Shown here piece after piece: positions 8,428 through 50,118 of a stretch of DNA of 64,000 nt. Made by a program: the position numbers and the translations under genes. Origin of the DNA: an uncultured Deferribacteraceae bacterium (lineage in GTDB: Bacteria; Chrysiogenota; Deferribacteres; Deferribacterales; Mucispirillaceae); assembly GCA_947041165.1 (NCBI GenBank), contig CAMRCY010000004.1:1-64000 (forward strand), in the 5' to 3' direction. The notes below the pieces were generated by a model. It was given only the letters and a program-made list of their open reading frames with translations, had not been told where the DNA came from and made no database searches. Each line of letters opens with the position of its first letter. The first letter of the stretch is position 1.

Positions 8428-8461
8428 ATACACCTCAAAAAGTTAGTTCTAACTTTTACAA

Positions 8462-22827: not shown

Positions 22828-23199
22828 CCGATATAGAGTAATCACCGTACCTAAAACCTATAAAACACCATTTAATTCGATAAAAAACCCATTAACAGTA
22901 CCACTATATCTAAAATTAAGTATTTTTCGTAAAAATCAATCTAAAAAAATAGTAAAACAACCCAAAAATAGAAAAAACAACGATTTTTATAGTATTTATT
23001 ACTCTATGCACCACTTTTGACCAACTATCCATTAAAAAGCACCAACTATCCCCCATTTTTAACAGGTATAAAGAAGATTTAAGATAAAGGTATTCTTATC
23101 TTTACTAATTAAGAATGTTTAATCCATAAAAAAATATGTTGTTAATTTATACAATTCTCGAACAAGCCTCTGATATATAAGGGTGAGAGGAATTTATTT
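22828..23199. promoter_or_regulatory. 372-base intergenic control region with paired ACCAACTATCC boxes
   Basis: No gene is visible. The 11-base box ACCAACTATCC occurs at 23,020-23,030 and 23,041-23,051, exactly 21 bases apart (two helical turns). A hairpin AAGATAA...TTATCTT lies further downstream near 23,083-23,104, and the promoter-like motif at 23,156 ends the region. Parts resemble the mirror-image spacer left of the other paralog. Probably an operator region for the 23,200 operon. Confidence 0.45.
23156..23184 (+). promoter_or_regulatory. repeated promoter motif, copy A
   Basis: The box TCTCGAACAAG is followed, after CCTC, by TGATATATAAGGGT. Identical spacing is found at 37,834 (minus), 40,206 (minus) and 44,280 (plus), always shortly upstream of a first gene. 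TATATA would serve as the -10 element. Here the gene starts at 23,200. Confidence 0.65.
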
Positions 23200-24000
23200 A
23201 TGATAGATAATAAACTAATTGATTTTACAAGTTGCGATATAGAAGAGATTAATTCTTACGTTGAATCTATATCGAATAAATATAACCTTTCAACTGATAG
23301 CATATTAGATACTTTACAGATCATATTAAGTGAAGTTCTCACAGAAGAGTTAGGTTACAAAGTTATTGCTAAGATGAGTAGCACCACCCTTTCTATTTTT
23401 GGATATATGAATCAACACGGTATAGAGAACGAATTTCCATTATCGTTAAATAATATTAAAAAACATCATATCAAAAAAATCTTTCAACTGTTTCTTCAAA
23501 AATTATCAGCACAAGAAGAAGAGAAACTTTTAGAAAAATATAAGTATCTAAAAAGATCTATTATTCAAGGCAAGATAGTGAAAAAGCATAATGACGAATA
23601 CCTTGTAAGCATTATCACAAATATAACTGCAGATGAAGAAGTAGAAGTGATAGCTCATTGTAACAAAAACTCATTTTTTAAAAGTGAAACAGAAGAACTA
23701 CAACCTAGTGAATTATGGTTTCAAGTAAACAATGTAAAAGTTGAAGAGTATGAAGGCGTATATAGACTAGTAATAAGTTTAACAAGAAAGAGTATGGAAC
23801 TTCCTTTACAGTTCATCAAACAAACTGTCAATGATAGCACCTTAAAACTAAAAATAATCTATCGTGCAAACGGTATTTATAAAATAAGAACATCAAGAAA
23901 AATCCCTAAATCAACATTAGAGATACTGTACAAAGAATTTAAAGATGAGAAATTTATTTTTAAGTTAGATCAAAAAACAGTTGGTATTAATAATGGATAA
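23200..24000 (+). CDS. hypothetical protein upstream of the coupling-protein chimera
   Basis: A 266-residue, Lys/Ile-rich soluble protein with no signal peptide or membrane segment. The first ~110 residues look helical. The middle (RSIIQGKIVKKHNDEYLVSI) has a beta-rich look and could be an OB/S1-like fold, only weakly reminiscent of NusA. I do not recognise the family. It is driven by promoter motif copy A and overlaps the next gene by eight bases, so the two are probably translated together. A DNA-processing or accessory transfer role is a guess from position. Confidence 0.55.
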   Translation: MIDNKLIDFTSCDIEEINSYVESISNKYNLSTDSILDTLQIILSEVLTEELGYKVIAKMSSTTLSIFGYMNQHGIENEFPLSLNNIKKHHIKKIFQLFLQKLSAQEEEKLLEKYKYLKRSIIQGKIVKKHNDEYLVSIITNITADEEVEVIAHCNKNSFFKSETEELQPSELWFQVNNVKVEEYEGVYRLVISLTRKSMELPLQFIKQTVNDSTLKLKIIYRANGIYKIRTSRKIPKSTLEILYKEFKDEKFIFKLDQKTVGINNG

Positions 24001-26395: not shown

Positions 26396-26447
26396 AGCTG
26401 TATGATGTAAGATTATATCAACGAAATGAAATTATATTAATAAAATT

Positions 26448-26473
26448 AGCCTAGATTATTCTAGGCTTTTTTT
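26448..26473 (+). terminator. rho-independent terminator
   Basis: AGCCTAG pairs with CTAGGCT across a six-base loop and is followed by seven T. It ends the operon of the coupling-protein/helicase chimera. Confidence 0.9.
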
Positions 26474-26684
26474 GTGTGTAAAAGGCTATTACAAAAAACT
26501 TAATTAGAAATAAAATAGCTTTTTTATACAAAATATTATATCATCATAGGTGATTTATAAGAGTATTTTATAGCCTAGTCTGATTTAGTGTAAAGTTTGC
26601 AATACTTTAAAACACCATAAAAACTCAAAACTACTTTATGAAATGTTTTTCTAAATAATGCTTGAGATGAGAGGGTTAAATATT

Positions 26685-28394
26685 ATGAGTAATATTCTAA
26701 CGCTGAAAACAATAAATGAACTAAATGAGTATTCCTTCCTTGTTCCCTCATATCAACGTGGATATAGATGGACAGATATCGAGGTTAGAGACTTATTAAA
26801 TGATATTAACGAATTTCAGCCAAAAGAAATTGAACCCAATAGTAGTAACAATGAAAAAACATGGTATTGCTTGCAACCACTAGTAATTAAAAAAAACAAT
26901 ACTAACTACGAAGTAATCGATGGACAACAACGGCTGACAACCATTTTTCTTATAAGACACCATTTAAATCAAGATTTTGTTGAAAGCAGTAGGGTTAAAC
27001 TATTTTCTCTAAAATATGAAACAAGACTAAAAACAGAACAATTTTTAAATGATATTAAAGAGGATATTAACGTCACAGAGGAAACATGTGATAATATAGA
27101 TTTTTACTATATACAAAATACTTATAATACTATAGCAAAATGGTTTGAAGAAAAAAAACAAGAAAAAAACTTTGACAAAAATGCTTTTAGCTCAAAATTT
27201 AACTTTGCTACAAAAGTTATTTGGTATGAAAGCTTTGAAGAGGATTCTATTTCTATTTTTGCAAGAATAAATATAGGTAAAATACCTCTAACAAATGCAG
27301 AACTAATCAAAGCCCTCTTTCTAAATAATGCCAATTTTCCTAAAGAAACAGATAATAAGCTTAAACCAAAACAATTAGAAATTTCTACTAGATGGGATGA
27401 AATTGAACAAAAATTGCAAAATGATAGATTCTGGTTTTTTCTCACAAAAAATGAAATGACAGTAAATCGCATTGAGTTCATATTCAACCTAATGAACGAC
27501 TCTATAGAAAAAGACCCTTACTCAACATTTCGTTACTTTACAAAAAAATTACAAAAAGGCTCAACTGAAAGCATTAGTGGAAATTGGGCTAAAATTGAAA
27601 AATATTATCAACGATTTTCTGAATGGTTTGAAGAACGGGAGCTTTATCATAAAATAGGTTATCTATTGACAGCAGAATCAGCAACAATAAAAGAGTTATA
27701 CAGTCAGTCATCATCAATAGGAAAAACCCTATTTAATAATAATTTAGATCAACTAATTAGAAAGGGGTTTGAAAATATAGACGTAGATGAAGTCCACTAC
27801 GGAGATAACTACATCAAAAAAACTTTATTATTATATAATATTTTAACTATGTTACAAAATGATAAAGATAATTCATATTTTCCTTTTGATATATATAAAA
27901 AAGATAACTGGGATGTTGAACATATTGCTTCTATCAAGGATTCAATTCCAGACAATAACTATAGAAAACAATGGCTTGAAGACGTTGGTCAATATATTGA
28001 TGAGACTGAGGAATCTGGCAAAAAACTCAAAACTAATATAGCTACGGTTGACATTCATCACAATGACAACTTTAAGCAACTCTATTATGACATAACAGAT
28101 CACTTTAACGAGTACTTTCAGGAGGATGATGATGTTGATGGTATTTCTAACTTAGCACTTTTGAATTCAGCGACAAATAGAGCATATAAGAATGCAGTTT
28201 TTCCTATTAAAAGAAATACTATAATAGAAAAAGATAAACAAGGCATATTTATTCCTATTTGCACTAAAAATGTGTTTTTAAAATATTTTAGCTCATATCC
28301 TCCTAAAATCTCTTTCTGGACATCTGATGATAGAGAAAAGTATGAAGTAGATTTACATGCCATATTAAATCCATTTTTCAAAAAGGAGGTTTAG
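26685..28394 (+). CDS. DUF262-family (GmrS-like) protein with DUF1524-like C terminus
   Basis: A 569-residue protein. The N-terminal DUF262 domain shows PSYQRGYRW near residue 20 and VIDGQQRLTTIFLI near 80, the ParB-like nucleotide-binding signature of the GmrS/SspE type. The C-terminal region has NWDVEHIAS and later a conserved ISNLALLN...NRAYKNAVFPIKR block, resembling DUF1524 (HNH-like nuclease, GmrD). Such fused proteins act in restriction of modified or invading DNA. ATG 26,685 has GAGAGGG eight bases upstream. It is followed six bases later by a second DUF262 gene. Confidence 0.85.
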   Translation: MSNILTLKTINELNEYSFLVPSYQRGYRWTDIEVRDLLNDINEFQPKEIEPNSSNNEKTWYCLQPLVIKKNNTNYEVIDGQQRLTTIFLIRHHLNQDFVESSRVKLFSLKYETRLKTEQFLNDIKEDINVTEETCDNIDFYYIQNTYNTIAKWFEEKKQEKNFDKNAFSSKFNFATKVIWYESFEEDSISIFARINIGKIPLTNAELIKALFLNNANFPKETDNKLKPKQLEISTRWDEIEQKLQNDRFWFFLTKNEMTVNRIEFIFNLMNDSIEKDPYSTFRYFTKKLQKGSTESISGNWAKIEKYYQRFSEWFEERELYHKIGYLLTAESATIKELYSQSSSIGKTLFNNNLDQLIRKGFENIDVDEVHYGDNYIKKTLLLYNILTMLQNDKDNSYFPFDIYKKDNWDVEHIASIKDSIPDNNYRKQWLEDVGQYIDETEESGKKLKTNIATVDIHHNDNFKQLYYDITDHFNEYFQEDDDVDGISNLALLNSATNRAYKNAVFPIKRNTIIEKDKQGIFIPICTKNVFLKYFSSYPPKISFWTSDDREKYEVDLHAILNPFFKKEV

Positions 28395-28400
28395 ACGCTA

Positions 28401-30374
28401 ATGGAACAAAATAATGAACAACTTAGTTTTTATGAACTTTTAAAAAAACATACTATAGAGATACCCATCATTCAAAGAGATTATGCACAAGGAAGAAAAG
28501 AACACTCAGAAGTGTTAGAAACATTTTTATCAGTACTAAAAGAAAGCATAGAATCTAAAAAAGAAATTCAACTTGACTTTATTTATGGAAATATTATCGA
28601 TGGTAGTTTTCAACCCCTCGATGGACAACAACGCTTGACAACTTTGTTTTTATTACATTGGTATGCAATAAAAAAAGACAATATTGATGACGATAACTTC
28701 CTTGAAAAATTTTCATATGAAACAAGATATTCTTCAAGAGATTTCTGTAAAGCTTTAGTTAAATGTACTATCGAATATAATGCTGATATAGAAAGCATTA
28801 GTAAACTTATTATTGATTCAAACTGGTTCTATCTTTCTTGGAAAAAAGACCCCACCATTCAATCAATGCTTAACGCATTAGATGAAATTCATAAACAATT
28901 TCATGCTGTTGAGAATCTATGGAATATACTGAAAGACGAAAACATAATAACATTCTATTATGTTGAACTAGAAAATATCGGACTCACAGATGATTTATAT
29001 ATCAGGATGAATGCTCGTGGAAAGCTCCTAACACCCTTTGAAAACTTCAAAGCTACTCTTCAACAAAAATCTATGGAAGAGAAATGGGAAGAACACCTAT
29101 CTCAAGAAAGTTTCTTTCTTTTGATAGATACCGAGTGGACTGACTACTTTTGGAAACATTTTAGAACAGAAGAGAATAGTATTGATGATGCTCATATCCG
29201 TCTTATCTCTGCGATTGTTATGACTCAGCTAGCTGTAGTGGAAAACGATAGCACGTGGTCATTAATTCAAAAGATTAATGAAAACCCAAACGAAATACGT
29301 ACTTTACATGTTACTCAAGAATCATTTCAATACTTATATCGATGTTATGAAAAATATTCTAGTGGTAGATTTACTGATTCATCCAATCTTGACTTTACTT
29401 TATGGAGACATACCCCCGAAAAATCATTAATATGCGATATCGTATACAATAATACATCAAAACAGACAAGCAGCTCTTATACAACTAAAATTTTATTTTA
29501 TGCGCAAACACAATTTCTGCTTAATAACGAAGAAATAAATATGGAAAAATATAGTGATTGGATGAGAGTTATACGCAATATCGTTTCTAGAGGAGATATC
29601 AATAGGGATGGAGAGCGTACAGATATAGTCAGAAGTCCCGATTCATATATAAAGGCAATAATGCTTGTCAAAGAACTTTCTAATGGCTGTAGAGATATCT
29701 ATGAATACCTACGTACCTCTGATATTCCACTCTTATTTTCACAAGCTCAATCACAAATCACAGAAGAGAAACTTAAGTCAAAATTATTTAAAGATAAACC
29801 AGAAATCAAGCAGTTAATTTGGGATATTGAAGATAACGAACTCTTACGTGGGCGTATTGAATTTGCATTATATTGTATGGATTTTGAAGAGGGCAAACCA
29901 CTAAATGAAGAGTTACTTAAAAAAGTAAAAGATGTATTTCATAAGTATTTTAATGATGAAAAGAATATTTTAAATGAATTACGTAGAGCAATGTTGTGTA
30001 TGCATAACGGAGATAACAACTGTTCTTTCTATGATTATTGGTGGTCTGAATGGAATGGTATTCCTGATAAAACCCTTACTAAAAGAAAACTACTTAATAA
30101 GTTTAGGGATTTGGAGTATATAATTTATCGTGATAAAAAAGATTATTTTAAAAACTTAGTTTTACAATTAACAGAAAAACCTCTAGAACAAATCATACAA
30201 GATTTTATACCTCCAGAAACTATGCCCAATTGGCAAAAACGATTAATTAATGAACCTAACTTACTTGTTGGTAAGACCTCTAACTATATTGCGATTCCAG
30301 ATGATAAGTCCTATTGTTACCTACTGAAAAGTATTCGACCTAGAAATACGGACGGTTGCATAAAGATAGAGTAA
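28401..30374 (+). CDS. second DUF262-family protein
   Basis: A 657-residue protein with a DUF262 domain: IPIIQRDYAQGR near residue 22 and LDGQQRLTTLFLLHW near 73, plus a DDLYIRMNARGKLLTPFENFK block typical of one DUF262 subfamily. The long C-terminal part is not recognised and has no clear HNH motif. ATG follows AAGGAGG. With the upstream gene it forms a two-gene unit that probably restricts foreign DNA. Such DUF262 pairs are common in defence islands, but the specificity cannot be read here. Confidence 0.85.
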   Translation: MEQNNEQLSFYELLKKHTIEIPIIQRDYAQGRKEHSEVLETFLSVLKESIESKKEIQLDFIYGNIIDGSFQPLDGQQRLTTLFLLHWYAIKKDNIDDDNFLEKFSYETRYSSRDFCKALVKCTIEYNADIESISKLIIDSNWFYLSWKKDPTIQSMLNALDEIHKQFHAVENLWNILKDENIITFYYVELENIGLTDDLYIRMNARGKLLTPFENFKATLQQKSMEEKWEEHLSQESFFLLIDTEWTDYFWKHFRTEENSIDDAHIRLISAIVMTQLAVVENDSTWSLIQKINENPNEIRTLHVTQESFQYLYRCYEKYSSGRFTDSSNLDFTLWRHTPEKSLICDIVYNNTSKQTSSSYTTKILFYAQTQFLLNNEEINMEKYSDWMRVIRNIVSRGDINRDGERTDIVRSPDSYIKAIMLVKELSNGCRDIYEYLRTSDIPLLFSQAQSQITEEKLKSKLFKDKPEIKQLIWDIEDNELLRGRIEFALYCMDFEEGKPLNEELLKKVKDVFHKYFNDEKNILNELRRAMLCMHNGDNNCSFYDYWWSEWNGIPDKTLTKRKLLNKFRDLEYIIYRDKKDYFKNLVLQLTEKPLEQIIQDFIPPETMPNWQKRLINEPNLLVGKTSNYIAIPDDKSYCYLLKSIRPRNTDGCIKIE

Positions 30375-30425: not shown

Positions 30426-32105
30426 TTACTCATAAAACGTTTTCATTTCATCTTGCATCTTTTTTTGTTTCTCTTCTAATGTCTTATTATCTAGCATCCC
30501 TCCTGACTCGCTCAATTCAGGCACAAGAACATCTGTAACATATGCGTTCATATCCTCAGAAAACTGAGGATCATCCATATTGATCTTTCCTAATTCATCA
30601 ACCGTTATACCTCTACAATTTGGTCTAGGAGGATTTTTTTGATATGTAAGATACTTATCTATAAATTTCAAATTCTCTCCCCATGTAATCTCTTTAGGTA
30701 TCTGATCTCTTGCTGCAACATTAAACGCTTTAGCTAACGGAGAATCGTAACAACAATAAATAGAAGATCTTCGTTTACATTCTGAGTTATCATCATAATC
30801 AAACGTATATCCTTTAGTCCAATCTTTACAATACTCTCCAATAATCACACACGAACCGTTATTATCTGATACTGCTCTTAATACTGATAATTGCTTCTCT
30901 TCATCAGTTGGCATATCAGCTATGTTCTCAATAATACCCTCTGTAAATAGCTTGATTAATAGTTGCCCAGGAGCGACTAAATATCCAAGTCCACCACCTA
31001 GACTTGTTGCATCAAAAAATTTATTAAGTCCATCTAGCATAGCTTTTTTTGTATTATCATCTAAATCAGATATCAAACATTGGTTAGGAGAAGTTAAATC
31101 ATTTGAAAGAATACCCTCCCCTTTATGTCTGCAATTATATTGCTTACCAGGAAACAGAACAATATCATTCACATCACAACTTGTAACATTATCCTCTACA
31201 GTTATATTATCTGTAGGCGTACTATTATCAGTAGGTAAAATTTGATCAGGATCTAAATTTATATCACCCGATATCACGCCACAAGGTGATGTTGAACAGA
31301 AATAATCTCTACCTTTATTTTCCGAAACACATGGGAGTAATTGATCAGATTTACAGTACACATTTACATCTTCTTTTTTAAAACGTACTGGCACTCTGAT
31401 ATTAATTACAGGGTACGCTAAGATACCTTTCTTGTAATGTCCTATACCAGCTTTGTTTCCTGGCAATACAGATGCTGATCCTCTAGCACTCCATCTAGAA
31501 ATAAATGCATATCTTAATGTTCTATAGTTTAATATTACAGGTGTCTTTTTAAGTGCATCTAAATCGATATCGGTTTTAATAGTTTTTTTAATTTCAGCTA
31601 ACAAGTTCAATGATGGATAATTAATTCTAAGCCCTCCATTTTTTTTATTATACTGATCAATTATCACATTGGTTAAATTTCTATCTACAGTGAAAGTTGT
31701 ACCTATCATCCCTTTATCATGTAATTCATGAATATCATCGTATTCGTTTATCGCTGTCCAAGTGTACTCAAAATCTATAAAAGTTGGAACATTAGTTATA
31801 GTCGTGTCTACTATACATTTTTCTTTAAATTTTATCATTGGACAAACCTTAGATATTTTATCTTCATCGTAATTACCGATCACAGTATCTAAGTTTTCAG
31901 CGACTACAACTTTATCTTTATTGAATGTTCCATAATTTTTACAAGGTGCAAAAACAGGCTCTTTACCGTATGGAGCATCTTGACATACTAAACATTCTTT
32001 CTCTCCATTACATAAAGCATTCATAAGATCATCGCCAGTTAAAGCAAATAAATTTACACTCGATAGCATAAAAATATACGCTACCATTAATATTATTTTT
32101 TTCAT
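30426..32105 (-). CDS. traN: second TraN-like mating-pair protein
   Basis: A 559-residue exported Cys-rich protein. It has a signal peptide ending NLFA and a C-terminal TraN block (SIYCCYDSPLAKAFNVAARDQIPKEITWG....PNCRGITVDELGKIN). The last ~30 residues are helical and charged. It is shorter than the TraN at 6-8 kb and has no lectin-like module. It is the last gene of a traF-traH-traN group on the minus strand, reversed in order relative to the main operon (here transcription runs traF2, traH2, traN2). It may exchange recipient specificity or be a remnant of another transfer system. Confidence 0.85.
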   Translation of the reverse strand: MKKIILMVAYIFMLSSVNLFALTGDDLMNALCNGEKECLVCQDAPYGKEPVFAPCKNYGTFNKDKVVVAENLDTVIGNYDEDKISKVCPMIKFKEKCIVDTTITNVPTFIDFEYTWTAINEYDDIHELHDKGMIGTTFTVDRNLTNVIIDQYNKKNGGLRINYPSLNLLAEIKKTIKTDIDLDALKKTPVILNYRTLRYAFISRWSARGSASVLPGNKAGIGHYKKGILAYPVINIRVPVRFKKEDVNVYCKSDQLLPCVSENKGRDYFCSTSPCGVISGDINLDPDQILPTDNSTPTDNITVEDNVTSCDVNDIVLFPGKQYNCRHKGEGILSNDLTSPNQCLISDLDDNTKKAMLDGLNKFFDATSLGGGLGYLVAPGQLLIKLFTEGIIENIADMPTDEEKQLSVLRAVSDNNGSCVIIGEYCKDWTKGYTFDYDDNSECKRRSSIYCCYDSPLAKAFNVAARDQIPKEITWGENLKFIDKYLTYQKNPPRPNCRGITVDELGKINMDDPQFSEDMNAYVTDVLVPELSESGGMLDNKTLEEKQKKMQDEMKTFYE

Positions 32106-33655
32106 TATTTACCAACTCCTAGTGCAGACGAACTTGCAGATATAACTGGGTGTCTATTTAATTGTGCTTGCATATTTTTTGTAGTTATTTCAAGTGAATC
32201 TAATGTTCTATTTCTTTCATTATAAGCATCGAATGCGTCTGCATATAATGAGTATGAATACTCACTCATTTCTCTTAATATCTTTCTCATACTATCAATT
32301 CCAACCTTAAACTCTTTATCGTTATTAATTAATTTGTATTTTTTTATCTCTGTTTCTAAAAGAGATAAATGAACTAACATCTCTTGAGTGATTAACGATA
32401 TAGTTTCATAAGCAAGTTGAACACCTGCCAATATTTTAAAGTTCTCTATGAAACTTTTAAAAAGCTGAGGATTAGCAGAAGTGGTATTTAATATCTTATA
32501 GATAGGAGATTTGAAAGTTGATAAAAATTCAAGTTGTGGAGTTTCTAAAGAATTACGAGTATTAAATTTTGTTTCAATAGCATTTATATTTTTAATACTT
32601 ATTCCAACAAAGCTTTCAGTAATGTAATCAAGACTACCATTACCATTATCTTTTCCCACAAATTCAATTGTTGTCTTAACTTCATCAAACTTATAACCGA
32701 TTTCTTGCAAGTCTTTAGGGTTTTTATTTTTCTCCCCAGTAATCCAGTAGTTAATTGCTTTTTGCATATCTGTTGTACTATTAGCGTGAAGCGAAGGATA
32801 GTAAACAACTGAAACGCTACCCTCTTTATCTCCTTTACCTTCTGTTTTTTGAAGAGTAATATCTCCAGTGAACGCTCTCACAAGATTAATTAATCCACTT
32901 GTTTGATCTATCGGATTTTCACTATCTACAGCCATTTTTAAATGTTGCAGACGACTACTCCTAGAAAAGATAGTTTGTAAAAAAGTAGCATTACCCATAA
33001 AAAAAGTTTTAGGACATTCAAACGAACTAGTCGTAACAACATCTGCAAGGCATATACTATCTACAGCATCCTCTATCCCTTTCATTAAATCTTTCATACC
33101 TGTATTAACTTTTTTCAATCCATCATTAAATGAATCGGTTAACCCTGATGTAACACCCATATTTGTAGCAGCCGCTGACACTAAATCGCCTCCCATATTA
33201 ACAGCAGCTTTTGCAACATTACATGAATCTAAATCCATACTATTGAGCATATTTGCAGCCTCTCCTAGTGTGTTCATCAAATCCGTACATTGAGGACACA
33301 ATGTTTGCATAGCAAGATTAAAAGCATACCCTGTAGAGTTTGAAACAACCTGTTTCATGAACTTAATAATATCATCACCGTTCACATGTTTAAAGCCTCC
33401 CCAATCGATATCTATTCCGTTACAACCTGCCTTGATCGATGGTGCACTTGCAGAGAACATTTTTAAGTTTCCACTCTCTACTGCAAACTTATATCCACCA
33501 CCTGAGTAATATGTTCCTCCTTGTGTGTCATAAGTTGCAGGCGAGTTCGACTCTATACTACTTGCAAGTCCTGATAACCAACCTGCATTTGCCTGACTAC
33601 TTAAACTACCAAAAATTATTATAGTAGTTAGCAGTTTAATTAATTGTATTTTCAT
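32105..33655 (-). CDS. traH: second TraH-like protein
   Basis: A protein of about 516 residues with a signal peptide (ending SSQANA) and the TraH N-terminal pattern: YYSGGGYKFAVESGNLKMFSASAPSIKAGCNGIDIDWGGF. It has a CPQC motif near residue 115 and long helical segments. Compared with TraH at 3.6-4.9 kb it is about 65 residues longer, with an insertion in the middle (around SICLADVVTTSSFECPK). The stop is adjacent to the traN2 start and the beginning overlaps traF2, so translation is coupled. Start at 33,655 is preferred over ATG 33,661 because AGGAG is then properly spaced. Confidence 0.85.
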   Translation of the reverse strand: MKIQLIKLLTTIIIFGSLSSQANAGWLSGLASSIESNSPATYDTQGGTYYSGGGYKFAVESGNLKMFSASAPSIKAGCNGIDIDWGGFKHVNGDDIIKFMKQVVSNSTGYAFNLAMQTLCPQCTDLMNTLGEAANMLNSMDLDSCNVAKAAVNMGGDLVSAAATNMGVTSGLTDSFNDGLKKVNTGMKDLMKGIEDAVDSICLADVVTTSSFECPKTFFMGNATFLQTIFSRSSRLQHLKMAVDSENPIDQTSGLINLVRAFTGDITLQKTEGKGDKEGSVSVVYYPSLHANSTTDMQKAINYWITGEKNKNPKDLQEIGYKFDEVKTTIEFVGKDNGNGSLDYITESFVGISIKNINAIETKFNTRNSLETPQLEFLSTFKSPIYKILNTTSANPQLFKSFIENFKILAGVQLAYETISLITQEMLVHLSLLETEIKKYKLINNDKEFKVGIDSMRKILREMSEYSYSLYADAFDAYNERNRTLDSLEITTKNMQAQLNRHPVISASSSALGVGK

Positions 33656-34472
33656 CAACATCTTCTCCTAAATATTTTAACCCATAAATGATTGCAGAAA
33701 TCATATCTGGCAATGTGTGTAACCCTGTTGCGATACGTTGATACTTTGTACCGTTAGAGTTAATTGCTAAAAATATATCAGGTGTAGTTTCAATTCCAAA
33801 CTTCTCTATCATCTCATTTTTACCTGATACATCAATCGTCACATATTCAAAACCGTACTTGCGTTTAAGCTCATTTAAGATAGGTATCTGTCTTTTACAA
33901 AACTCACAAGTTGGTGAAACAAAAATTATCAACCCTGCTTTTTCTGAGTAGCTTTTTAGAATATTATCTACGTTATCATTTGCAACAACTCTTGAAACAG
34001 AACTTTCAAAATGTCCCCTTTTACTAGAGTTCATTAACCCTGCTAAAAGATCGTTAGGGTTTTCTGTTCTAACCATTCGATCCTCATTCATAAATGCTAC
34101 CGTCTTATTTTGTATCCACTGAGAGAGTTTTCTATATTCCAATATATTCTCTTCAGTTGGATAAGTTATGGCCACCTTGCGTGCTTGAGGCTCTATGATT
34201 TTTGCAATCTGATCAGGATCAATTCTATCGATCTTATCCCACGGTATATTCTGCGTATCTTCTAAAATAGTATAATTATCTTTGCTCTCAACAATAGGAT
34301 CACTCACAATAGGCACACACTCTTTCTTCCAATACCAACCTTTATCTGCATTGCCAGTATTCCAAAACCTTTTATCATTACAGTTGTTAGACTCTTCACT
34401 CATGCCACTCGCAAACGATAAATTGAAATTTAAAATCAACAATGTGATCGATATAATAAATTTATAAATCAT
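33636..34472 (-). CDS. traF: second TraF-like thioredoxin-fold protein
   Basis: A 278-residue protein with a signal peptide (ending NLSFA). GWYWKKECVP and VESKDNYTILEDTQNIPWDKIDRIDPDQIAKI match the region after the peptidase part of the traF fusion at 4.9-6.1 kb. Its thioredoxin-like domain has CEFC in place of CPYC, and PDIF follows near the cis-Pro position. There is no S26 peptidase domain. ATG 34,472 has GGCAGGTG upstream. It is the first gene of the traF2-traH2-traN2 block. Confidence 0.85.
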   Translation of the reverse strand: MIYKFIISITLLILNFNLSFASGMSEESNNCNDKRFWNTGNADKGWYWKKECVPIVSDPIVESKDNYTILEDTQNIPWDKIDRIDPDQIAKIIEPQARKVAITYPTEENILEYRKLSQWIQNKTVAFMNEDRMVRTENPNDLLAGLMNSSKRGHFESSVSRVVANDNVDNILKSYSEKAGLIIFVSPTCEFCKRQIPILNELKRKYGFEYVTIDVSGKNEMIEKFGIETTPDIFLAINSNGTKYQRIATGLHTLPDMISAIIYGLKYLGEDVDENTIN

Positions 34473-34487
34473 ACTTATCACCTGCCA

Positions 34488-41061: not shown

Positions 41062-42111
41062 CTTTGCCCTTCACGGCGGATGGATAGAAGTTAAAACGAA
41101 CACGTTTGAAAACGTGATTATATAGATTGTTTTTTAGCCTAGTGTATAGGCAAGAGAGCTGAACGCAGTAAAGATGTTAATCTTACTGTTATTAGGTGTA
41201 TGGGTGCTAACTGGTTTAATCGACCAATGTAATCCATACGGGTGTCGCATGGTGCAATGAGAGTTGCTCGCCATGTGGCAACGGGGGCTGCGAGTAAAAT
41301 CGCTTCTACCCACTAAAAATCCTCTCCTTTTTTGCACTTAGTACTCCTACAATTGTTTTAGAGATAGAACACTTGCACGCTAAGTGATTTTCATGTAAAA
41401 TTATTTTGTAACTGGGCGACACGGAAATTATGAACGATATATCGTTTGTACATTATATATGAAGTGGTGATATGGCTAGTAATAGCTAAGTAATCCACCT
41501 TGTGGGATAGTCGTAATACTATAACACTAAGCATGCCAGGGGAGTCTGATCGTAGTAATATTATCAGATAAATAGCTCAACCTGTAAAGGAACTAACAGA
41601 ACAACGTTAGTCTAAAGCGTCCTATCCGCCTTGACAATCAAGGTTCTAGGAGGATGCAAGCATGTAAGTAGATTGAGAGTGGCAAGGCCGAACTTGCGTT
41701 GAAGAATCAGTGTACCGAAATATCTTAACTTTAAGATAAAGTAAGGGGGAGCTTCTAGTTTCTGCCCCGATACCATAAACATATCACAAACTGATTTCGA
41801 GCAGACCAGACTCAATGTACGTCGTATATAACTAACGTGGAAAGATCCGAACGGATAGGTTTGATACCCTATTCCCTATTGCGAGGATTGATTAGCGGAG
41901 ATTAGTAATCTTAATATAGAACAGATGCAAGGCAGTGTCTGTTTAAATTCTAGAGTTGGCTGATTACCAACTTTGTAGCAGAATAGATGAAAATTTCCAC
42001 CTTCTCTTACTTATACACAACATTTTTTTCAGTTCGTTTAAGGGATAGTTTAGCTTAATTGCTAGCTATCCCTTTTAATTAACTGATATCTATCCGCCCT
42101 GAAGGGCAAGG
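41062..42111 (+). ncRNA. ~1.05-kb candidate large structured RNA closed by a long-range helix
   Basis: The segment is much richer in G+C than its flanks and has no convincing reading frame. Its ends pair with each other: 41,062-41,086 with 42,087-42,111 over 25 positions, giving 22 Watson-Crick pairs, two G-U pairs and one mismatch. Inside, many local helices can be drawn: CACGTT/AACGTG (41,101), GCCTA/TAGGC (41,137), CATGG/CCATG (41,248), GCTA-GTAA-TAGC (41,475), TCTGAT/ATCAGA (41,545), ACTAAC/GTTAGT (41,592), CCTTGA/TCAAGG (41,629), TATCTTAA/TTAAGATA (41,720), ATCCG/CGGAT (41,845), AGTTGG/CCAACT (41,953) and AAGGGATAG/CTATCCCTT (42,040). This is the look of an ornate large RNA. No known class (RNase P, tmRNA, group I/II introns, 16S/23S) was recognised. 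Strand is inferred from the downstream gene. Confidence 0.65.
42040..42076 (+). terminator. strong hairpin near the 3' end of the structured RNA
   Basis: AAGGGATAG (42,040-42,048) pairs with CTATCCCTT (42,066-42,074), extended by TAGC/GCTA, then TTTTAATT. It may terminate some transcripts before the small gene, or it may just be a structural arm, since the long-range closing helix needs sequence beyond it. Confidence 0.5.
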
Positions 42112-42145
42112 CAAATCAAAAGATTTCTCCCGAAAAGAGGTGTCT

Positions 42146-42790
42146 ATGAGAAAAGTTTATCTATGTGAATTATGGCAAGGACTAATTCAACAGATCGTAT
42201 CCTTAGTTTCAAGAGGTTACGAAGAATATCAACTATTAACTCCAAAAGGTAATGTTACTGAAGAACGTTTGCGTAGAATTGATAAGCGTATTATTAAGGT
42301 TTTTAATCTTAAAGGGCAAAATCGTAATACTCGTTATACTAACAAAAAACGTGGTATAGCAAACTTTATTTATTTACGTTGGGACAAGATAGCGATCATA
42401 TTAAAAACAAAAGGAGAAGTACCTGAAAGCTTAAAGAATGAAAAGTTTTCCGATACTGCAAAAGGTATTATTATCGAAGTAAGTGATATAATATCAATGA
42501 AAATAGGCTATGCAAAAGGCGAAGCAGGTAGATATACTTGTAGACTTGAAAAGCATAGTTATAATGAAATTCTAGGAGATTTACTAATCTTACTAGAACA
42601 TAAAAAAATAAATGAATTAAGGTATATGTTTTCAATATTGAATAATTTGCCTGCATTTAAAGGCGTTATTGAACAGAAATTCGATATTCGTAATGCTATA
42701 TCAAAAAATGCTAAAAAGCATAATATTAAATTAGATATGAAATATTTTTTCATATTGACTAGAAGAAAGATGTATAAAGTCTTTAAATAA
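42146..42790 (+). CDS. small basic protein linked to the structured RNA
   Basis: 214 residues from ATG 42,146 (AGAGG five bases upstream; a GTG six bases earlier is less likely). It is Lys/Arg/Tyr/Ile-rich with no signal peptide or membrane segment. Visible blocks are YLCELWQGLIQQIVSLVSRG near the start, KKRGIANFIYLRWDKIAIIL near 70-90, LEKHSYNEILGDLLILLEHK, NNLPAFKGVIEQK, and a basic end (FILTRRKMYKVFK). No catalytic motif known to me is present (no reverse transcriptase, HNH, GIY-YIG or RuvC pattern). It begins 35 bases after the closing helix of the structured RNA and is followed by a terminator, so RNA and gene form one module. RNA binding is a reasonable guess from charge and context only. 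Confidence 0.65.
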   Translation: MRKVYLCELWQGLIQQIVSLVSRGYEEYQLLTPKGNVTEERLRRIDKRIIKVFNLKGQNRNTRYTNKKRGIANFIYLRWDKIAIILKTKGEVPESLKNEKFSDTAKGIIIEVSDIISMKIGYAKGEAGRYTCRLEKHSYNEILGDLLILLEHKKINELRYMFSILNNLPAFKGVIEQKFDIRNAISKNAKKHNIKLDMKYFFILTRRKMYKVFK

Positions 42791-42862: not shown

Positions 42863-42909
42863 AAAAAGCCCCTACAGAACTATTAGATAGTTTTGCTTAG
42901 GGGCTTTTT
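42863..42909. terminator. bidirectional terminator
   Basis: AAAAAGCCCCTA (42,863-42,874) pairs with TAGGGGCTTTTT (42,898-42,909). It separates the RNA/small-gene module from the convergent nuclease-like gene. Confidence 0.9.
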
Positions 42910-42941
42910 TTATTGTCTATTTTTAAAATGTAAGTTGAATA

Positions 42942-44192
42942 TTAGAAATCATCCATTGTTAACAAACCTGTATTGTCCGTAAAAACAGAAATAATTTCAT
43001 CAGTTGTTATTTCTTCTTTAAGGAATTTTTCAAATAACTTTAGAAAAGTTTCGGTAGTAATGATTAATATCTTGTATTTATCAGCACATTCAACTACTTC
43101 GTCATTGACTTTATCTTTTTTTCTTTCTTCTATATCTTTACTTCTAAATGTATTAATTATAAGTAAGGGATACACCGTTTCACTAACTCCATCATCATCT
43201 AGCTTATCTTTATATCTACTTGCAGAAAGGTTTACTTGAGATACGTTAGCCTCTCTAACATTAGAGTTAACGCCTTTAATTTCTCCTATAAAAGTAATGC
43301 CACTCTTCATTTGTATTGAAAAATCTTCTTTCTTTTTATCTACAAAGTTAGATAAATCATAATCTAACATTTTTTCTAGCATTACAAAAATCACATTTGC
43401 AAGGTTTTTACCTGATTCAATTAATATGCTTTTATAATTTAAATTTTCATTGATTTTTTTCTCAATCTCACTATTACGTTTATTATACTCTTTTATAATA
43501 GCTTTATTATCATCTACTATTTTTTTCTGATCATCATCATCAAAAAAGCTGTATTCTTGTAACCACTCTGGACAAACCTCTTTAGTATCAATCAATTTAA
43601 TTTCTTTTAAAAAATCATAAATACCGTTTGGAAGAAAATTGATTGTAGTAATAAAGATACTATCATAAAATTGTATTGTTGTGGTTTTTTCACTACACTC
43701 CGAAGTAGTTATAATCTTGCCATCAGGCATGCGACTAAAGTGAAAATCTGAATCATATTCATTACCATTTAGCTTATTACGACACCTTTCAAAAGATAGG
43801 GTGTAATTTTTTATCTTATCAGTAAGAAGGCTAGGCATTATATAAGTCATTAACACAGGAAGCATATCTTTTAATTTCATTTTATTCGGATAGTTGCCAT
43901 TATAGTGATCTAAGTAATACATTTCTGTATTTTGTGGAAATATGATAATGGCTTTTGCTGTTTTTGCATTAAGCAATATTGAACTCAACGATATTAAATC
44001 GTTTATCTTATTTATACTCTCATTATTATATTCATTATTTCGCCATAAACTTTCGTTTTGTAAATCAATAATATTTATCTTATAGTCATCAAAAGATCTA
44101 GGTTCATCTATTGTGTGGCACTCTAAACTGAACTCCTTACCAACGTTAACTTCTTTTGCAGTACCACTATAATCAATTAATTGTATTTTCAT
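42942..44192 (-). CDS. restriction-endonuclease-like protein (candidate PD-(D/E)XK fold)
   Basis: 416 residues. The C-terminal ~150 residues show a possible PD-(D/E)XK core: EDFSIQMKSGITFIGEIKGVN, with the acidic E-x-K in GEIKG, followed by YPLLIINTFRS and YKILIITTETFLKLFEKFL, a pattern seen in nuclease domains of defence proteins. The N-terminal ~220 residues are alpha/beta without a known motif and may be a sensor (INIIDLQNESLW, AIIIFPQN). It stands alone between two terminators or promoters. A single-gene defence role is inferred, not shown. Confidence 0.5.
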   Translation of the reverse strand: MKIQLIDYSGTAKEVNVGKEFSLECHTIDEPRSFDDYKINIIDLQNESLWRNNEYNNESINKINDLISLSSILLNAKTAKAIIIFPQNTEMYYLDHYNGNYPNKMKLKDMLPVLMTYIMPSLLTDKIKNYTLSFERCRNKLNGNEYDSDFHFSRMPDGKIITTSECSEKTTTIQFYDSIFITTINFLPNGIYDFLKEIKLIDTKEVCPEWLQEYSFFDDDDQKKIVDDNKAIIKEYNKRNSEIEKKINENLNYKSILIESGKNLANVIFVMLEKMLDYDLSNFVDKKKEDFSIQMKSGITFIGEIKGVNSNVREANVSQVNLSASRYKDKLDDDGVSETVYPLLIINTFRSKDIEERKKDKVNDEVVECADKYKILIITTETFLKLFEKFLKEEITTDEIISVFTDNTGLLTMDDF

Positions 44193-44338: not shown

Positions 44339-45232
44339 ATGGATAAGTTTATGGAGATCGCAAAAGAGTTAGGTTTAATTATCGACAAACCGATAGCAAA
44401 CGGAAGTATTCAGAGAGTGGCAGTTGAAGGAACTAAAAAGGCTAGTGCAAAAGATGGAGCGTACTGTATTTACAACAATCCAAACGGTACAGCTGGGTGG
44501 ATCAGCAATAACAGAACTGGAGAGTATAAAACTGTATCGATATCAGGAGAGGTTAATGAGTATCAAAAAGGATTAAACACTTATAATCCAAAAGAAAACA
44601 ATCTAAGACAAAATGAAAAAGCAAGTCAAGCAACTTATCTTATTACTAAAATCTTTAAAAAAGCTTTATATCATAAGTATTTATGTACTAAAAAGATCTC
44701 GCCATACGGTGCATTAGTTGATAACTACGGTGTACTAATTATCCCTTTACAAAATATTAAAGGCGAATATCGTTCATTTCAACGCATCTATGAAGACGGC
44801 AGTAAATCGTTCTTTACAGGTGGACAGAAAAAAGAGTGTTTCTTTCTGATAGGTAAGCAGATCGATAAAGAAGTTATCATCTGTGAGGGATATTCAACGG
44901 CTACAACGATCTATCAAGCAACTAAAATCCCTACAATCGCAGCGATGGATGCAGGTAATATTGAACCAGTGGCAAAAGCAGTAAGAGATCGATACGGCAA
45001 AGATCTAAACATAATTATTGCAGGTGATGATGATGCTTTAAGAGATGATAACCCTGGACGAAGATACGCAACTAAAGCTGCTAAATCAGTTGACGCAAGT
45101 GTTGTTTTTCCTAAGTTCACAGAACGTGAAGTTATTGATGGGCTTACAGATTTTAATGATCTGTATATTGTAAGTGATATTAAAAGAGTGAAATTGTCTT
45201 TTAAAAAGCATTGTGCTATATCAGTTGACTAA
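44339..45232 (+). CDS. TOPRIM-domain plasmid primase-like protein
   Basis: 297 residues. The C-terminal half is a TOPRIM domain: EVIICEGYSTATTIYQ (the Glu of motif 1) near 180-195, IAAMDAGNIEPVAKAVRDRY, and IIIAGDDDA (DxD motif) near 225-235. The N-terminal half resembles the small DNA-binding/regulatory part of plasmid TraC/DnaG-type primases (GTAGWISNNRTGEYKT). It probably makes primers for replication of the transferred strand or the excised circle. It is the first gene of an operon with the integrase, driven by motif copy B. Confidence 0.8.
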   Translation: MDKFMEIAKELGLIIDKPIANGSIQRVAVEGTKKASAKDGAYCIYNNPNGTAGWISNNRTGEYKTVSISGEVNEYQKGLNTYNPKENNLRQNEKASQATYLITKIFKKALYHKYLCTKKISPYGALVDNYGVLIIPLQNIKGEYRSFQRIYEDGSKSFFTGGQKKECFFLIGKQIDKEVIICEGYSTATTIYQATKIPTIAAMDAGNIEPVAKAVRDRYGKDLNIIIAGDDDALRDDNPGRRYATKAAKSVDASVVFPKFTEREVIDGLTDFNDLYIVSDIKRVKLSFKKHCAISVD

Positions 45233-45258
45233 ATACATACTAGAGGGGCGTTCATTTT

Positions 45259-46194
45259 ATGAAAGAATCAAATTTTGAAACAACAGTATTAAGCAGTTTA
45301 TCTGATATCGCGAACTTGTTATCATTTACAAATATCAGAGAGGTAGAGGAGCATAAAAAGACATATCTAAAAGACTATATATTAGATAAATATAAGCCAT
45401 ATTATATAGCAAAAGCTAAAAAAATGTCATCGATTAAAAGTGATCTTATTAGATTGAAAGCAATTCTAAGTCATCCTATATCTGAGCTAGCGATAGAAGA
45501 TATTAAAACACATGATATCGAACTATTTTTGGTATCATATGAGAAAATGGGTAGAAGTAAAGCTACTATAAATCGTTATAGATCAAGGTTAAATGCTATT
45601 TTCAACCATGCAATAGTTAATGATATTATAATCAAAAACGTTGTAAAAGGAGTAAAGCAATATAAAGAACAAAGTAGAGATATTGCATTAACTGATGAGG
45701 AGATAGAACAGGTATTAGATGAAGCTAAAAGAAGTAGAAATAAGGAGTTGTATCTTATATTAATGATTGCTTTGAATACTGGTATGAGGCGAGGAGAGAT
45801 TTTGAATTTACGAAAGGATAATCTCGTTGGATTGACTATAGTTTTGTTCGATAATGAAACTAAATCAGGATATAAAAGAGTTATCCCAATTAACAATACT
45901 TTAATAGAGCAGATTAAAATTCATTTAAGTGATATACTGTTAGATGAAAACAGGATTTTCAAATCTAAAGATATACGCACAGCATTTGATAATGTGAAAA
46001 AAAGAACAGGATTACGACATTTTAGATTTCATGATCTAAGACGTACATTTGCAACAAAGTTGAAAGATAAAGATGTAAATCTCTATGATTTAAAAGAGCT
46101 TTTAGGACATTGTAGTATAACGATGACAGAGAAATATCTGACATCAAGTATCTACACGTTAATGAAAGCTGTGAATAAGATAGCGTATAGGTAG
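45259..46194 (+). CDS. int: tyrosine recombinase (integrase) of the 29-kb element
   Basis: 311 residues with all catalytic positions visible: Arg177 (TGMRRGE), Lys202 (ETKSGYKR), His258 and Arg261 (FHDLRRTFATKL), His284 (LLGHCSITMTEKYL) and nucleophile Tyr293. The N-terminal ~110 residues form the SAM-like arm/core-binding part. GAGGGG precedes ATG. It lies about 4 kb from attR and 27 bases after the primase gene, with which it shares promoter motif copy B. It most likely catalyses recombination at the tRNA-Leu anticodon arm. An excisionase is not recognised. Confidence 0.92.
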   Translation: MKESNFETTVLSSLSDIANLLSFTNIREVEEHKKTYLKDYILDKYKPYYIAKAKKMSSIKSDLIRLKAILSHPISELAIEDIKTHDIELFLVSYEKMGRSKATINRYRSRLNAIFNHAIVNDIIIKNVVKGVKQYKEQSRDIALTDEEIEQVLDEAKRSRNKELYLILMIALNTGMRRGEILNLRKDNLVGLTIVLFDNETKSGYKRVIPINNTLIEQIKIHLSDILLDENRIFKSKDIRTAFDNVKKRTGLRHFRFHDLRRTFATKLKDKDVNLYDLKELLGHCSITMTEKYLTSSIYTLMKAVNKIAYR

Positions 46195-46458: not shown

Positions 46459-47439
46459 TTAATCCTTTCTTTGCATTGCAGAAATAAAATCACTAAACCC
46501 AGAGCTCATCATATCCTCAAGCGAAATACCTTTTCTGTCAGAAACTGCATCCATAAAGGATTGTATCCCTATTTGAATGAGTTTAACCATTTGTATTTCT
46601 TCAACATGATTTTTTGTGTGCACAGGATCGTCAAGACTCTTAATCATTTCTCGTATTTCAGTTTCTTTTATTTTCCAATATTTAATATATTCGTTTTGCC
46701 CTGCTAGAGAATACAAATCAACTCCAATTGGTATATCTACAGAATCACCATAGTACTGCTTATCATTCTCAGTAATAATAACAAACAACAGTTTCTCAAT
46801 ATACTTTCTGTCTCGCATCATCTCTACCATTTCATACATACAGTTAATAGATTTTAAATACTGGTCACTAATAATTACAACGATAAAGTCATGATCCCCT
46901 ATTGACTGCATAAACATTGAAAGGCTTTCCTTGTACCTGACATCACGTATGTCTCTAGATATTTTAATCCACCTTACTCTATCAATAAGCTCCTTCTCTA
47001 TTATATTTAAAATAGGAGAATCTTTTTGACAATATGACATAAAAACAGTCTTAGTAATCATAAGTTCTGGTTGCTGATTCGATATATTAAAAACGAAAGC
47101 ACTGTTATTAACCTTTACTACCTCTTTATTTTCCTTAATACATACGTATTCTAATTTATGATTTTCTTCTATCTCAAATTTACCGAATTGAATATCCACA
47201 TGAGCATCTAACATACCTCTAATTATAGTTTCTTGTTCAATAACATTAAATGCCGAGTTCTTAAGATGCAAGTGGTTACCATCATCCTTAACTCCGAATA
47301 GGATTATTCCTCCAGTTGTGTTTGAAAAAGCAGATATATATTTAGCAATTAACTCATTGGATTCTACTGGATGAAGATATACAATATTGTCTCTATTATT
47401 ATTATCTATTTTTGATTTTATACACTCACGTATTTCCAT
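46459..47439 (-). CDS. AlbA_2 (Schlafen-type) plus TIR domain protein
   Basis: 326 residues. Residues about 20-110 form an AlbA_2/Schlafen-like ATP-binding domain (ESNELIAKYISAFSNTTGGIILFGVKDDG). Residues about 131-250 form a TIR domain: VFMSYCQKD near the start and, at Glu203 (SINCMYEMVEMM), a candidate NADase glutamate in the usual position. The last ~70 residues are helical. TIR domains in bacteria usually cut NAD+ or make signalling nucleotides during phage infection. The gene follows the HSP90-like ATPase gene after 15 bases (AAGGAG ribosome site), so both are one unit. I do not know a named system with exactly this pair. Confidence 0.85.
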   Translation of the reverse strand: MEIRECIKSKIDNNNRDNIVYLHPVESNELIAKYISAFSNTTGGIILFGVKDDGNHLHLKNSAFNVIEQETIIRGMLDAHVDIQFGKFEIEENHKLEYVCIKENKEVVKVNNSAFVFNISNQQPELMITKTVFMSYCQKDSPILNIIEKELIDRVRWIKISRDIRDVRYKESLSMFMQSIGDHDFIVVIISDQYLKSINCMYEMVEMMRDRKYIEKLLFVIITENDKQYYGDSVDIPIGVDLYSLAGQNEYIKYWKIKETEIREMIKSLDDPVHTKNHVEEIQMVKLIQIGIQSFMDAVSDRKGISLEDMMSSGFSDFISAMQRKD

Positions 47440-47454
47440 AAAAATATACTCCTT

Positions 47455-49929
47455 TTATACTAAATTATTTGAAAGCTTTTTCAGTGGAATAGCTGTCAGT
47501 CCTGTAGTTTTTATAATATCTCTTAAAGTGATCTCTCGAATAAATCCTTTCCCATCATCTGTCCATAATTCATACCTATTATCATCTAAAGCTTCTATTT
47601 CTGCATCCTCATAAAAGATAATTTTCTCATCATCACTTGGTCTAATAACTATTCTTAACACTCGGTCATCACGATTAGCTTGAAATACAGTCTTTGAGTA
47701 TTGATTCGCTTTCCATAATTCCAAAGAAGAATCTACTGTATACTTACTACTCTTATTTAAATAATCATATACATTACTAATAGACCTATCTATTAGTAAC
47801 TCTATTTTTTCTTTTGCATATATTGACTTTGATGAACTGTGTTGAAATGATTGTAAAACCTCTTTCGATAAGGACTGCTCTCCTGTTTCTAGCATGTTCA
47901 GTAATAGAGCAGAGTTATCGAGGAGTATGTTTATTTGCTCTTGATTTATACCATATTTATTCATTGTACTTTCTACAGTATCTGCAAACTCAAGCCTTCT
48001 AAGAGTTTCTTCATTATTAGAAAGAAGATGGCGACGGTCATAAGTATCATTAAACAAAGCCTTAGCTTCCTCTTTATTTTTTTCAAACCACACTGTAAGA
48101 GTATTGAATGAACTTTGAATTGCATGTTCTCGGTTGGTTGTTCCTGCATTTTCTAAATAAAGTTGCTTACGAATTAATTCAGATATGAAATTTGCAATAT
48201 CTTTATTATTATAAGATTCAAGCTGAATACTTTCTAATAATACTATTTCTTTATGTAAAAGTTGTTTTTTAATGTCATTACCTAATGATGTTAAAATTTC
48301 TTTCAATACATCATCAATACCATTATCTTTTTTTAACTTATTTATTTCGATGAATTCGTCTTTTTGGTTCGGAACAATTGCCTGAAGCCGAAACTCTTGA
48401 TTACCCATGCTACGAATCCTTAAATCATACAGATTATTTAACCATGTAAACTTAATCGCCTTATCTAGTAACAGATCATCAATTGAGCTTAACTGACCAC
48501 CTATAGTTAGAAACTGATCATATAGATCTTTCAATGTCACCTTATTGCTAGGTGATATCTTCGACCAATACTTATAAGTTTCTTTTGTCGGGAGCTTTAC
48601 GCTGAAGTTAATCTTATTTAATAACTCCCACAATTCATCCGTTAGTTCATTCGTAGACATATATGGAATAATAATATTGCTCTCTTCTTGCATGCCATTC
48701 ATTCTATATAAACTCTCCTTAACTAAGTTTTGATCTTTATCTAGCGTATCTACTAGTGGCAATATTTTGTAAATGTTTACAATTTTATTTAATATTTTTT
48801 TTTCCAATGAAGAGGCGTGTTCATTATAAATACCGCATAAATGATAGAGATTATTCCAGTTTTGACAAGAAATGTAATTTAACATCTTTTGGTACAAGAG
48901 TATTGCTGTTGAAAATATACCATCGTTAATAGTTGAACCTTCTAGAATGCCATTTCTTTCTTGCCTTACTTCAAAATTCGGGCTATTTAGAATAATCGGA
49001 AAGCTAAATTTTTCCGTACCCACTAATGGAAAAGTGCAAAATAGCTTAGGCATATTGCTAGATGACAAAATAGAATATTGACCTTCATTACACTCTATCA
49101 ATGTTGCAATTGATACTCCATTTTCTATATCCGTACATACCAAAACATTAATTGTTTTAGTTTGATCATTATCCACCTTTGTTATACTAAATATTTCCAA
49201 TCCATCTGTAAGAATCTTTGGAGTTCTATCAAAAATATATTTAACACCATTCCAATTCACTTCTTTGATTGTTTTAGAGAATACAAATACAAAAGGTATT
49301 AAGCTATTAAGTGCATTATATCCATAATTTATAGCATCCTTAACTTCCAAACATTCAGGTGTTGGTAATATGTATTTAAAAGATGTTGTTATCATATCTA
49401 AATTAGATGGAGGAGCAATATCCTGACTTTGATTTGTCATCTCAGCTTGTTGTATAGCATTAAGGATAGACTCTCTGATAGCTTCTTCTCCAATTCCGCT
49501 ACGGTCAAGCATACAAGACATAGCTTTATAATTATTTGAATCCTTATACTTATGGAATATTCCATTAATCATTATCATTTTAGAGATTAAATGAGTAGAC
49601 ATAAATCCAGTCCCATACTTTCCTATTTTTTTGTCTTCATCTGTTCTTTTAGATGAAATTTGCGTTATTAAATCTAATAAATCACTATGTGTAAATACTT
49701 TACCATTATGGGAAAAGAGAAGTTCTGCTTCATTAAGTTCTATTGTAATAATTATGCCACCAGTATTTTCACAATCCTTTGCGTTTTGCATTAACTCCCA
49801 AATCCAACGTCTTTGCATTATCTCTTTATCGCTATCATTCGCACCATTCAACTCTGTTATTTTGGTTAAAATTGAATTGAGAGCAGCATCAATGGTTTTT
49901 TTACGATAAATATCAGCTTCAGTATCCAT
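47455..49929 (-). CDS. HSP90/GHKL-type ATPase, large defence-type protein
   Basis: About 824 residues. The N-terminal ~250 residues are a GHKL ATPase: N box WELMQNAKD near residue 45-52, and a G2-like box GKYGTGFMSTHL near 103-114. The remaining ~570 residues have no recognised motif and are mostly helical. HSP90-like ATPases of this length occur in bacterial defence islands together with effector genes; here the effector is the AlbA-TIR gene downstream. ATG 49,929 has AGGATGG eight bases upstream. ATG 49,941 is in frame but without a spaced site. The protein might sense infection and release the TIR domain; this is inference. Confidence 0.75.
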   Translation of the reverse strand: MDTEADIYRKKTIDAALNSILTKITELNGANDSDKEIMQRRWIWELMQNAKDCENTGGIIITIELNEAELLFSHNGKVFTHSDLLDLITQISSKRTDEDKKIGKYGTGFMSTHLISKMIMINGIFHKYKDSNNYKAMSCMLDRSGIGEEAIRESILNAIQQAEMTNQSQDIAPPSNLDMITTSFKYILPTPECLEVKDAINYGYNALNSLIPFVFVFSKTIKEVNWNGVKYIFDRTPKILTDGLEIFSITKVDNDQTKTINVLVCTDIENGVSIATLIECNEGQYSILSSSNMPKLFCTFPLVGTEKFSFPIILNSPNFEVRQERNGILEGSTINDGIFSTAILLYQKMLNYISCQNWNNLYHLCGIYNEHASSLEKKILNKIVNIYKILPLVDTLDKDQNLVKESLYRMNGMQEESNIIIPYMSTNELTDELWELLNKINFSVKLPTKETYKYWSKISPSNKVTLKDLYDQFLTIGGQLSSIDDLLLDKAIKFTWLNNLYDLRIRSMGNQEFRLQAIVPNQKDEFIEINKLKKDNGIDDVLKEILTSLGNDIKKQLLHKEIVLLESIQLESYNNKDIANFISELIRKQLYLENAGTTNREHAIQSSFNTLTVWFEKNKEEAKALFNDTYDRRHLLSNNEETLRRLEFADTVESTMNKYGINQEQINILLDNSALLLNMLETGEQSLSKEVLQSFQHSSSKSIYAKEKIELLIDRSISNVYDYLNKSSKYTVDSSLELWKANQYSKTVFQANRDDRVLRIVIRPSDDEKIIFYEDAEIEALDDNRYELWTDDGKGFIREITLRDIIKTTGLTAIPLKKLSNNLV

Positions 49930-50118
49930 ATCTAGTTCCATCCTATTTTAATGTTTTTCTATGTTCTAATTATTTGACAAATATATTCTTTTACGATAAA
50001 CCTCTCTAAAACAAAGATAGGTTTGTACATAATAAAGTATTGAACTTATAACCCATTTCAATTTTATATTATATAAAATCAATTTATATTCTATTTTAAC
50101 TTCAGTATAACTAATCTA

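Follow-up and report, generated by a model that had tools for sequence, protein, structure and literature searches.

The locus and its surroundings

The window (the whole 64,000-nucleotide stretch of DNA that was analysed) comes from an uncultured Deferribacteraceae bacterium and carries an integrative conjugative element with genes for F-type transfer, an actin-like segregation protein, a Toprim protein and a tyrosine integrase; chromosomal genes start about 50.8 kb into the window. Inside the element is a 1,050-base segment that holds no convincing gene in any frame and is richer in G+C than the DNA around it (39% versus about 30–33%), and the reading frame of a 214-amino-acid protein begins 35 bases beyond the long helix that joins the ends of this segment (Table 1). 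The original prediction had recognised these features and had taken the segment for a large, ornate structured RNA genetically linked to a protein on a mobile element, a description that has held up well: positions 41120–42080 fold at −285 kcal/mol versus −238 ± 6 for shuffled sequences (z = −8), homologs show strong covariation, and the RNA–protein pair recurs in remote phyla. Terminators had been placed on both sides of the pair; the downstream one, a hairpin with a T run, is present, and no upstream one is found on the plus strand.

Table 1. Features of the RNA, the acpG gene and adjoining DNA in the window (SS, splice site)
Feature	Position	Strand	Basis or remark
Outer long-range helix, 5′ arm	41062–41094	+	congeners only; one disruptive, zero compensatory changes
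P1 hairpin, GCCUA-GUGUA-UAGGC	41137–41151	+	pairs with 42012–42018 through its loop and the 3′ side of its stem (P1-loop/3′-end pseudoknot)
P2-like hairpin, upstream of D5	41166–41188	+	compensatory changes among congeners
Domain V	41244–41279	+	held-out model R1, E=1.3e-14; RF00029 at aligned place in L003 and L010
Domain VI, putative branch-point A41308 (7th base from 3′ splice site)	41280–41314	+	R1 match
Predicted excised RNA circle, 99 nt	41315–41413	+	3′SS 41314/41315; 5′SS 41413/41414
IBS1, GUAACU	41408–41413	+	last six bases of predicted circle
Domains I, II and III, beginning at the GGGCG 5′ splice-site motif	41414–42001	+	covarying consensus structure, five remote loci
EBS1 (AGUUUC), in a loop 17 nt past the conserved AGUAA	41757–41762	+	eight-locus pairing test
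3′ partner (UAUACAC) of P1 loop	42012–42018	+	covariation among congeners
Hairpin position	42040–42074	+	hairpin at same place in L002, L014 and L018
Outer long-range helix, 3′ arm	42079–42111	+	same basis as 5′ arm
Shine-Dalgarno-like AGAGGTG	42136–42142	+	ahead of acpG
acpG homolog, 214 aa, from ATG 42146	42146–42790	+	profile match to Thermus AcpG; 216 aa if from GTG 42140
Terminator-like hairpin with T run, after acpG	42863–42911	+	downstream of the pair
Toprim protein and tyrosine integrase of host element	44339–46194	+	context

The slot between acpG and the Toprim gene is variable: the 416-aa gene that fills it in the window (42942–44192) is absent from the congeners L016 and L017. Positions 21325–30374 hold, in one run with transfer genes on either side, genes for an HTH-like protein, a SNF2-type helicase and two GmrSD-like proteins, likely defence cargo within the conjugative element. 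Just outside the integrase (46459–49941) a Schlafen AlbA_2 plus TIR protein stands beside a protein of 828 aa whose sacsin-like match is weak, and the two look like a defence pair. TraH and TraN-like genes each occur twice in the transfer region (30426–34481 and 3583–8433), which suggests a composite or duplicated F-type system.

Identity of the RNA

Almost certainly, the segment at 41.06–42.11 kb encodes a ribozyme of the circularly permuted (CP) group II class, with its AcpG partner encoded directly 3′ of it. CP group II ribozymes are the ‘T-large’ RNAs described by Roth et al. (2021, iScience; PMC8637638), who also named the AcpG family, and so the class is not new. The group II D5/D6 model RF00029 matches the gap upstream of an AcpG-family gene in a planctomycete (L003) and on a Leptolyngbya plasmid (L010); both matches align with window positions 41244–41314, and GGGCG and the remaining structure follow on the 3′ side. 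It is this placement of D5-D6 on the 5′ side, with GGGCG and the rest of the structure after it, that identifies the RNA as CP group II. A covariance model, R1, was built from an alignment of eight D5-D6 sequences that excluded the window, in which 13 of 19 pairs show two-sided changes and 94.6% of cells are paired (versus 33–53% in slid controls). R1 finds positions 41244–41314 with E=1.3e-14, its sole match in the window and in the genome, and it also finds the published pPNAP05 ribozyme of Polaromonas naphthalenivorans, likewise held out, with E=4.8e-9. The Thermus pTT8 member, which is more diverged, is missed by R1; its D5 and D6 are recognisable by eye, as is its GGGCG.

The order of parts in the window is D5-D6-(3′ splice site, circle, 5′ splice site GGGCG)-D1-D2-D3-D4-acpG, that is, D5-D6 lie 5′ of D1 and the splice sites are reversed and internal. 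This permuted order is common to at least eight loci from several phyla, GGGCG is present at the 5′ splice site in all loci compared, and consensus folding of five remote loci yields 162 pairs, with two-sided change in 107. Domain V is built of a 9-bp stem, an unpaired U41253, a 5-bp stem with a GAGA tetraloop and a 3-nt bulge (UCG), and in domain VI a G-C pair has become C-G by a double change in the congeners L004 and L005.

Besides domain order and splice-site arrangement, the window RNA shares with the published class (PMC8637638) the GGGCG 5′ splice site, the D6 branch A, the EBS1–IBS1 pairing, the P1-loop/3′-end pseudoknot, a D4 stem-loop, the lack of an internal ORF, a nearby AcpG and a home in mobile elements. 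It differs in its triad position (CGC versus the published consensus AGC), in its extra long outer helix and in the size of its predicted circle (99 nt versus 15–86 nt in PMC8637638). Canonical bacterial group II introns with a reverse transcriptase (RT)/maturase are alike in D5/D6 sequence and structure and in splice-site logic, whereas the window order is permuted, its splice sites are not at the outer ends, no RT ORF lies inside or adjoining the RNA, and the genome has no GIIM maturase. The earlier view that the RNA is unrelated to group II introns is thus contradicted by the presence of domains V and VI, in permuted order. Its likeness to OLE, ROOL and GOLLD is one of size and ornateness only, with no Rfam match.

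A dead, scrambled leftover of an ordinary group II intron would also have group II domains and lack an intron-encoded reverse transcriptase, and could well sit in a mobile element, but this origin is very improbable given that one and the same permuted order recurs across those loci, that compensatory changes are still appearing within the genus, and that variability among congeners is 4% in D5-D6 versus 30% in the P2 region. The original proposal that this large, ornate non-coding RNA forms a class of its own, without kinship to known ribozymes, can hardly be right: the Rfam 15 scan it called for did find no relevant match in the window, to a large RNA class or otherwise, at the gathering threshold or E≤5, but this is no sign of novelty, as Rfam 15 simply does not recognise the CP group II class here, and the proposal is refuted by the held-out D5-D6 match in permuted order, alongside the RF00029 matches in homologs and the GGGCG motif, EBS1–IBS1 pairing and AcpG link, all common to the published class.

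Long-range pairings

The 25-position helix between 41062–41086 and 42087–42111 has exactly the 22 Watson-Crick pairs, 2 G-U pairs and 1 mismatch originally counted, and with a score of 58 (versus a maximum of 32 in 30 shuffles) it is real. It is near-invariant within the genus and absent from close relatives outside it, a genus-level feature and not part of the conserved core, and this restriction rules it out as the closing helix of the CP class. The outer arms were also considered as the inverted repeat of transposon ends; no supporting transposase or duplication was seen. The pairing common to remote relatives is an inner one, 41142–41158 with 42002–42018. Here the strands of the P1 pseudoknot, GUGUAUA/UAUACAC in the window, have changed together in the congeners, to (U)UGUCUA/UAGACA(U) in L004 and AAGUCUA/UAGACUU in L005, and long-range pairing at the same position is present in L002, L007, L014 and L018. 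At the place in L007 that matches window 42040–42074, a GGGGCUGGCAACCCC-U5 hairpin is visible.

Splice sites and proposed reaction

The splice sites were assigned by a rule, with the 3′ splice site after the U that follows D6 and the 5′ splice site at GGGCG; applied to pPNAP05, the rule gives a 32-nt circle, which is the published size. In the window GGGCG stands at 41414, and the ...CU at 41314 fits the NU of the 3′ splice site. Circles predicted in this way for the related loci span 11 nt (Geobacter) to 99 nt (the window), a slightly wider range than the published one. EBS1–IBS1 pairing in eight loci amounts to 42.5 of 48, with 5 of 6 pairs in the window, and was equalled in 2 of 40,320 permutations; since the EBS1 register had been picked after complementarity was noticed in several loci, this permutation test is a fairer control yet not a fully blind one. 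In seven loci EBS1 was located from the AGUAA anchor, as a 6-mer at a set distance from it, and in pPNAP05 the 6-mer was chosen by complementarity.

By homology to the members that have been tested, the window copy is expected to be catalytic. The RNA would fold with D5 docked on D1, and the 2′-OH of A41308 in D6 would attack the downstream 5′ splice site (41413/41414), after which the freed 3′ end would attack the upstream 3′ splice site (41314/41315). The products would be the 99-nt circle and a T-shaped branched RNA in which D5-D6 are joined 2′-5′ to D1-D4. AcpG probably plays the part that a maturase has for an ordinary group II intron, binding the ribozyme and making it more stable. CP group II is one of few large natural ribozymes and makes circular RNA; the phylum of the window copy is absent from the main text of PMC8637638, its predicted circle exceeds in length all those given there, and its coupling to the protein gene, which is transcribed in the same direction, is tight.

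Relatives and distribution

The RNA and protein are found together in three congeneric genomes (94–96% protein identity) and, at greater distance, on the Planococcus plasmid pA26H1 (29% protein identity) and in three further genomes: L007, from the same order, L014 (Geobacter OR-1) and L018 (a Thermodesulfovibrionia MAG). An AcpG-family gene preceded by a large gap is also carried by plasmids of a planctomycete, Calothrix and Leptolyngbya. These relatives lie on plasmids or, in L014 and L018, beside recombinase-like genes (translations read by eye). Among 51 genomes of the phylum, the RNA is present in five, all of which have AcpG, and never occurs alone; in a sixth genome AcpG is truncated, at the end of a contig. 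Viral contigs searched with the protein and with a D5 pattern gave no match, nor did phage records. Deferribacterota, Nitrospirota, Planctomycetota and Cyanobacteria come in addition to the phyla given in the main text of PMC8637638; some of them may be among the ~290 members in its supplement.

Some loci carry more than one copy or a damaged one. On Calothrix sp. NIES-4101 plasmid5 (L009) there are two D5-D6 copies about 2.1 kb apart (635–737 and 2786–2879), with acpG directly after the second one only. The Leptolyngbya plasmid pLBX (L010, NZ_AP014640.1) has a weak second D5-D6 match at 498958–499033 (E=2.7e-4), perhaps a diverged or decayed copy. Genome G031 (L008, 484–1731) retains D1-side RNA sequence and, at the contig end, a truncated acpG; no more than about 100 bases separate this RNA from an IS30-type transposase ORF upstream. 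The RNA has no D5-D6 match and is therefore probably a broken copy.

The AcpG protein

In hhalign, 171 columns of a profile of eight relatives of the 214-aa protein align with five AcpG proteins from Thermus (E=3e-7, probability 93%), versus E≥0.14 in shuffled and reversed controls, and by this sequence likeness the protein belongs to the AcpG family named in PMC8637638. The match extends to TTHC007 of Thermus thermophilus pTT8, from which the window protein differs in sequence (about 16% identity) and in arrangement, as the window gene is co-directional with the RNA and downstream of it, whereas TTHC007 is divergent and upstream. A P. naphthalenivorans protein that was considered as an AcpG (L012:6621) proved unrelated. 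Among congeners the dN/dS of acpG is 0.27–0.68, indicating purifying selection. An AcpG profile search against PDB sequences gave no match.

It is a live possibility, if short of a probability, that AcpG, a protein with no relative known so far, is a group II maturase that has become small and lost its catalytic activity, with a palm hairpin without YADD and thumb/X helices, and that a permutation inside D4 split an intron bearing an intron-encoded protein (IEP). On this view the CP class would be an RNP of two parts, a circularising ribozyme and a free-standing maturase, which derives from a retroelement and is maintained by plasmids and ICEs. Such a permutation would have moved D5-D6 to the front and left the maturase gene right behind D4, the position of acpG; rotation of an intron that has its ORF inside D4 yields D5-D6-D1-D2-D3-D4-ORF, as found at the window locus. 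When an AlphaFold model of the L018 homolog (pLDDT 72) is compared by Foldseek with the whole PDB, ranks 1, 2, 4, 6, 7 and 9 go to group II maturases or group-II-like RTs (probability 0.94–0.98, TM 0.49, E just 0.04), matches that are not independent since the proteins hit are homologs of one another. The better-scored model, that of the window protein (pLDDT 81), is without clear maturase likeness; Foldseek gave nothing significant for it, with a group II RT second (E=0.39, probability 0.12). Profile alignment of AcpG with six IEPs is collinear over 145–149 columns, a length reached in none of 150 shuffles, with a score no better than that of shuffles (57 of 120 as good). In this register WQGFIQQIV falls with RT4, YLRY with RT5/YADD and the C-terminal helices with thumb/X; the YADD catalytic motif itself is absent, and YLRY/W-x-x-x-A stands in its place.

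AcpG might instead be an unrelated new fold with a job of its own, tied to the RNA merely through shared plasmids, and with no AcpG match in Pfam, NCBIfam or PHROG, a best Foldseek E-value of 0.04 and CP RNAs without acpG reported by Roth et al. (PMC8637638), this too is possible, if somewhat doubtful: AcpG adjoins CP group II RNA in the window and its relatives, an adjacency preserved across phyla despite protein identities of 17–33%, and in the phylum survey the RNA is always accompanied by AcpG. Were AcpG a relic maturase, a shrunken splicing helper, it would explain where the intron-encoded protein went, and both this and RNA folding in vivo would become directly testable. There is no group II maturase (GIIM) elsewhere in the 98.6%-complete genome. 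The one reverse-transcriptase domain of the genome (G000:C17:3620-4174, L020) lies in a 997-residue open frame that is not a GIIM maturase and is possibly a defence RT.

Possible role

The literature searched describes no biological role for the CP group II class. The likeliest role is that of an accessory RNP, with the transcripts of its host mobile element as the proposed targets, a last step put forward with low confidence. A different and distinctly unlikely role is that of a chiefly cis-acting acpG leader, in which the folding, the 3′ stem-loop or the outer helix would govern read-through into acpG or its translation, with the circle as a by-product. Outside Thermus the RNA is indeed directly upstream of acpG and co-directional with it, stem-loops (a terminator-like one in L007) separate RNA and gene, and the outer helix stops just short of the Shine-Dalgarno sequence; however, acpG is divergent in Thermus and not every CP group II RNA has an acpG in its vicinity (PMC8637638), and a 700-nt catalytic core far exceeds what a leader requires.
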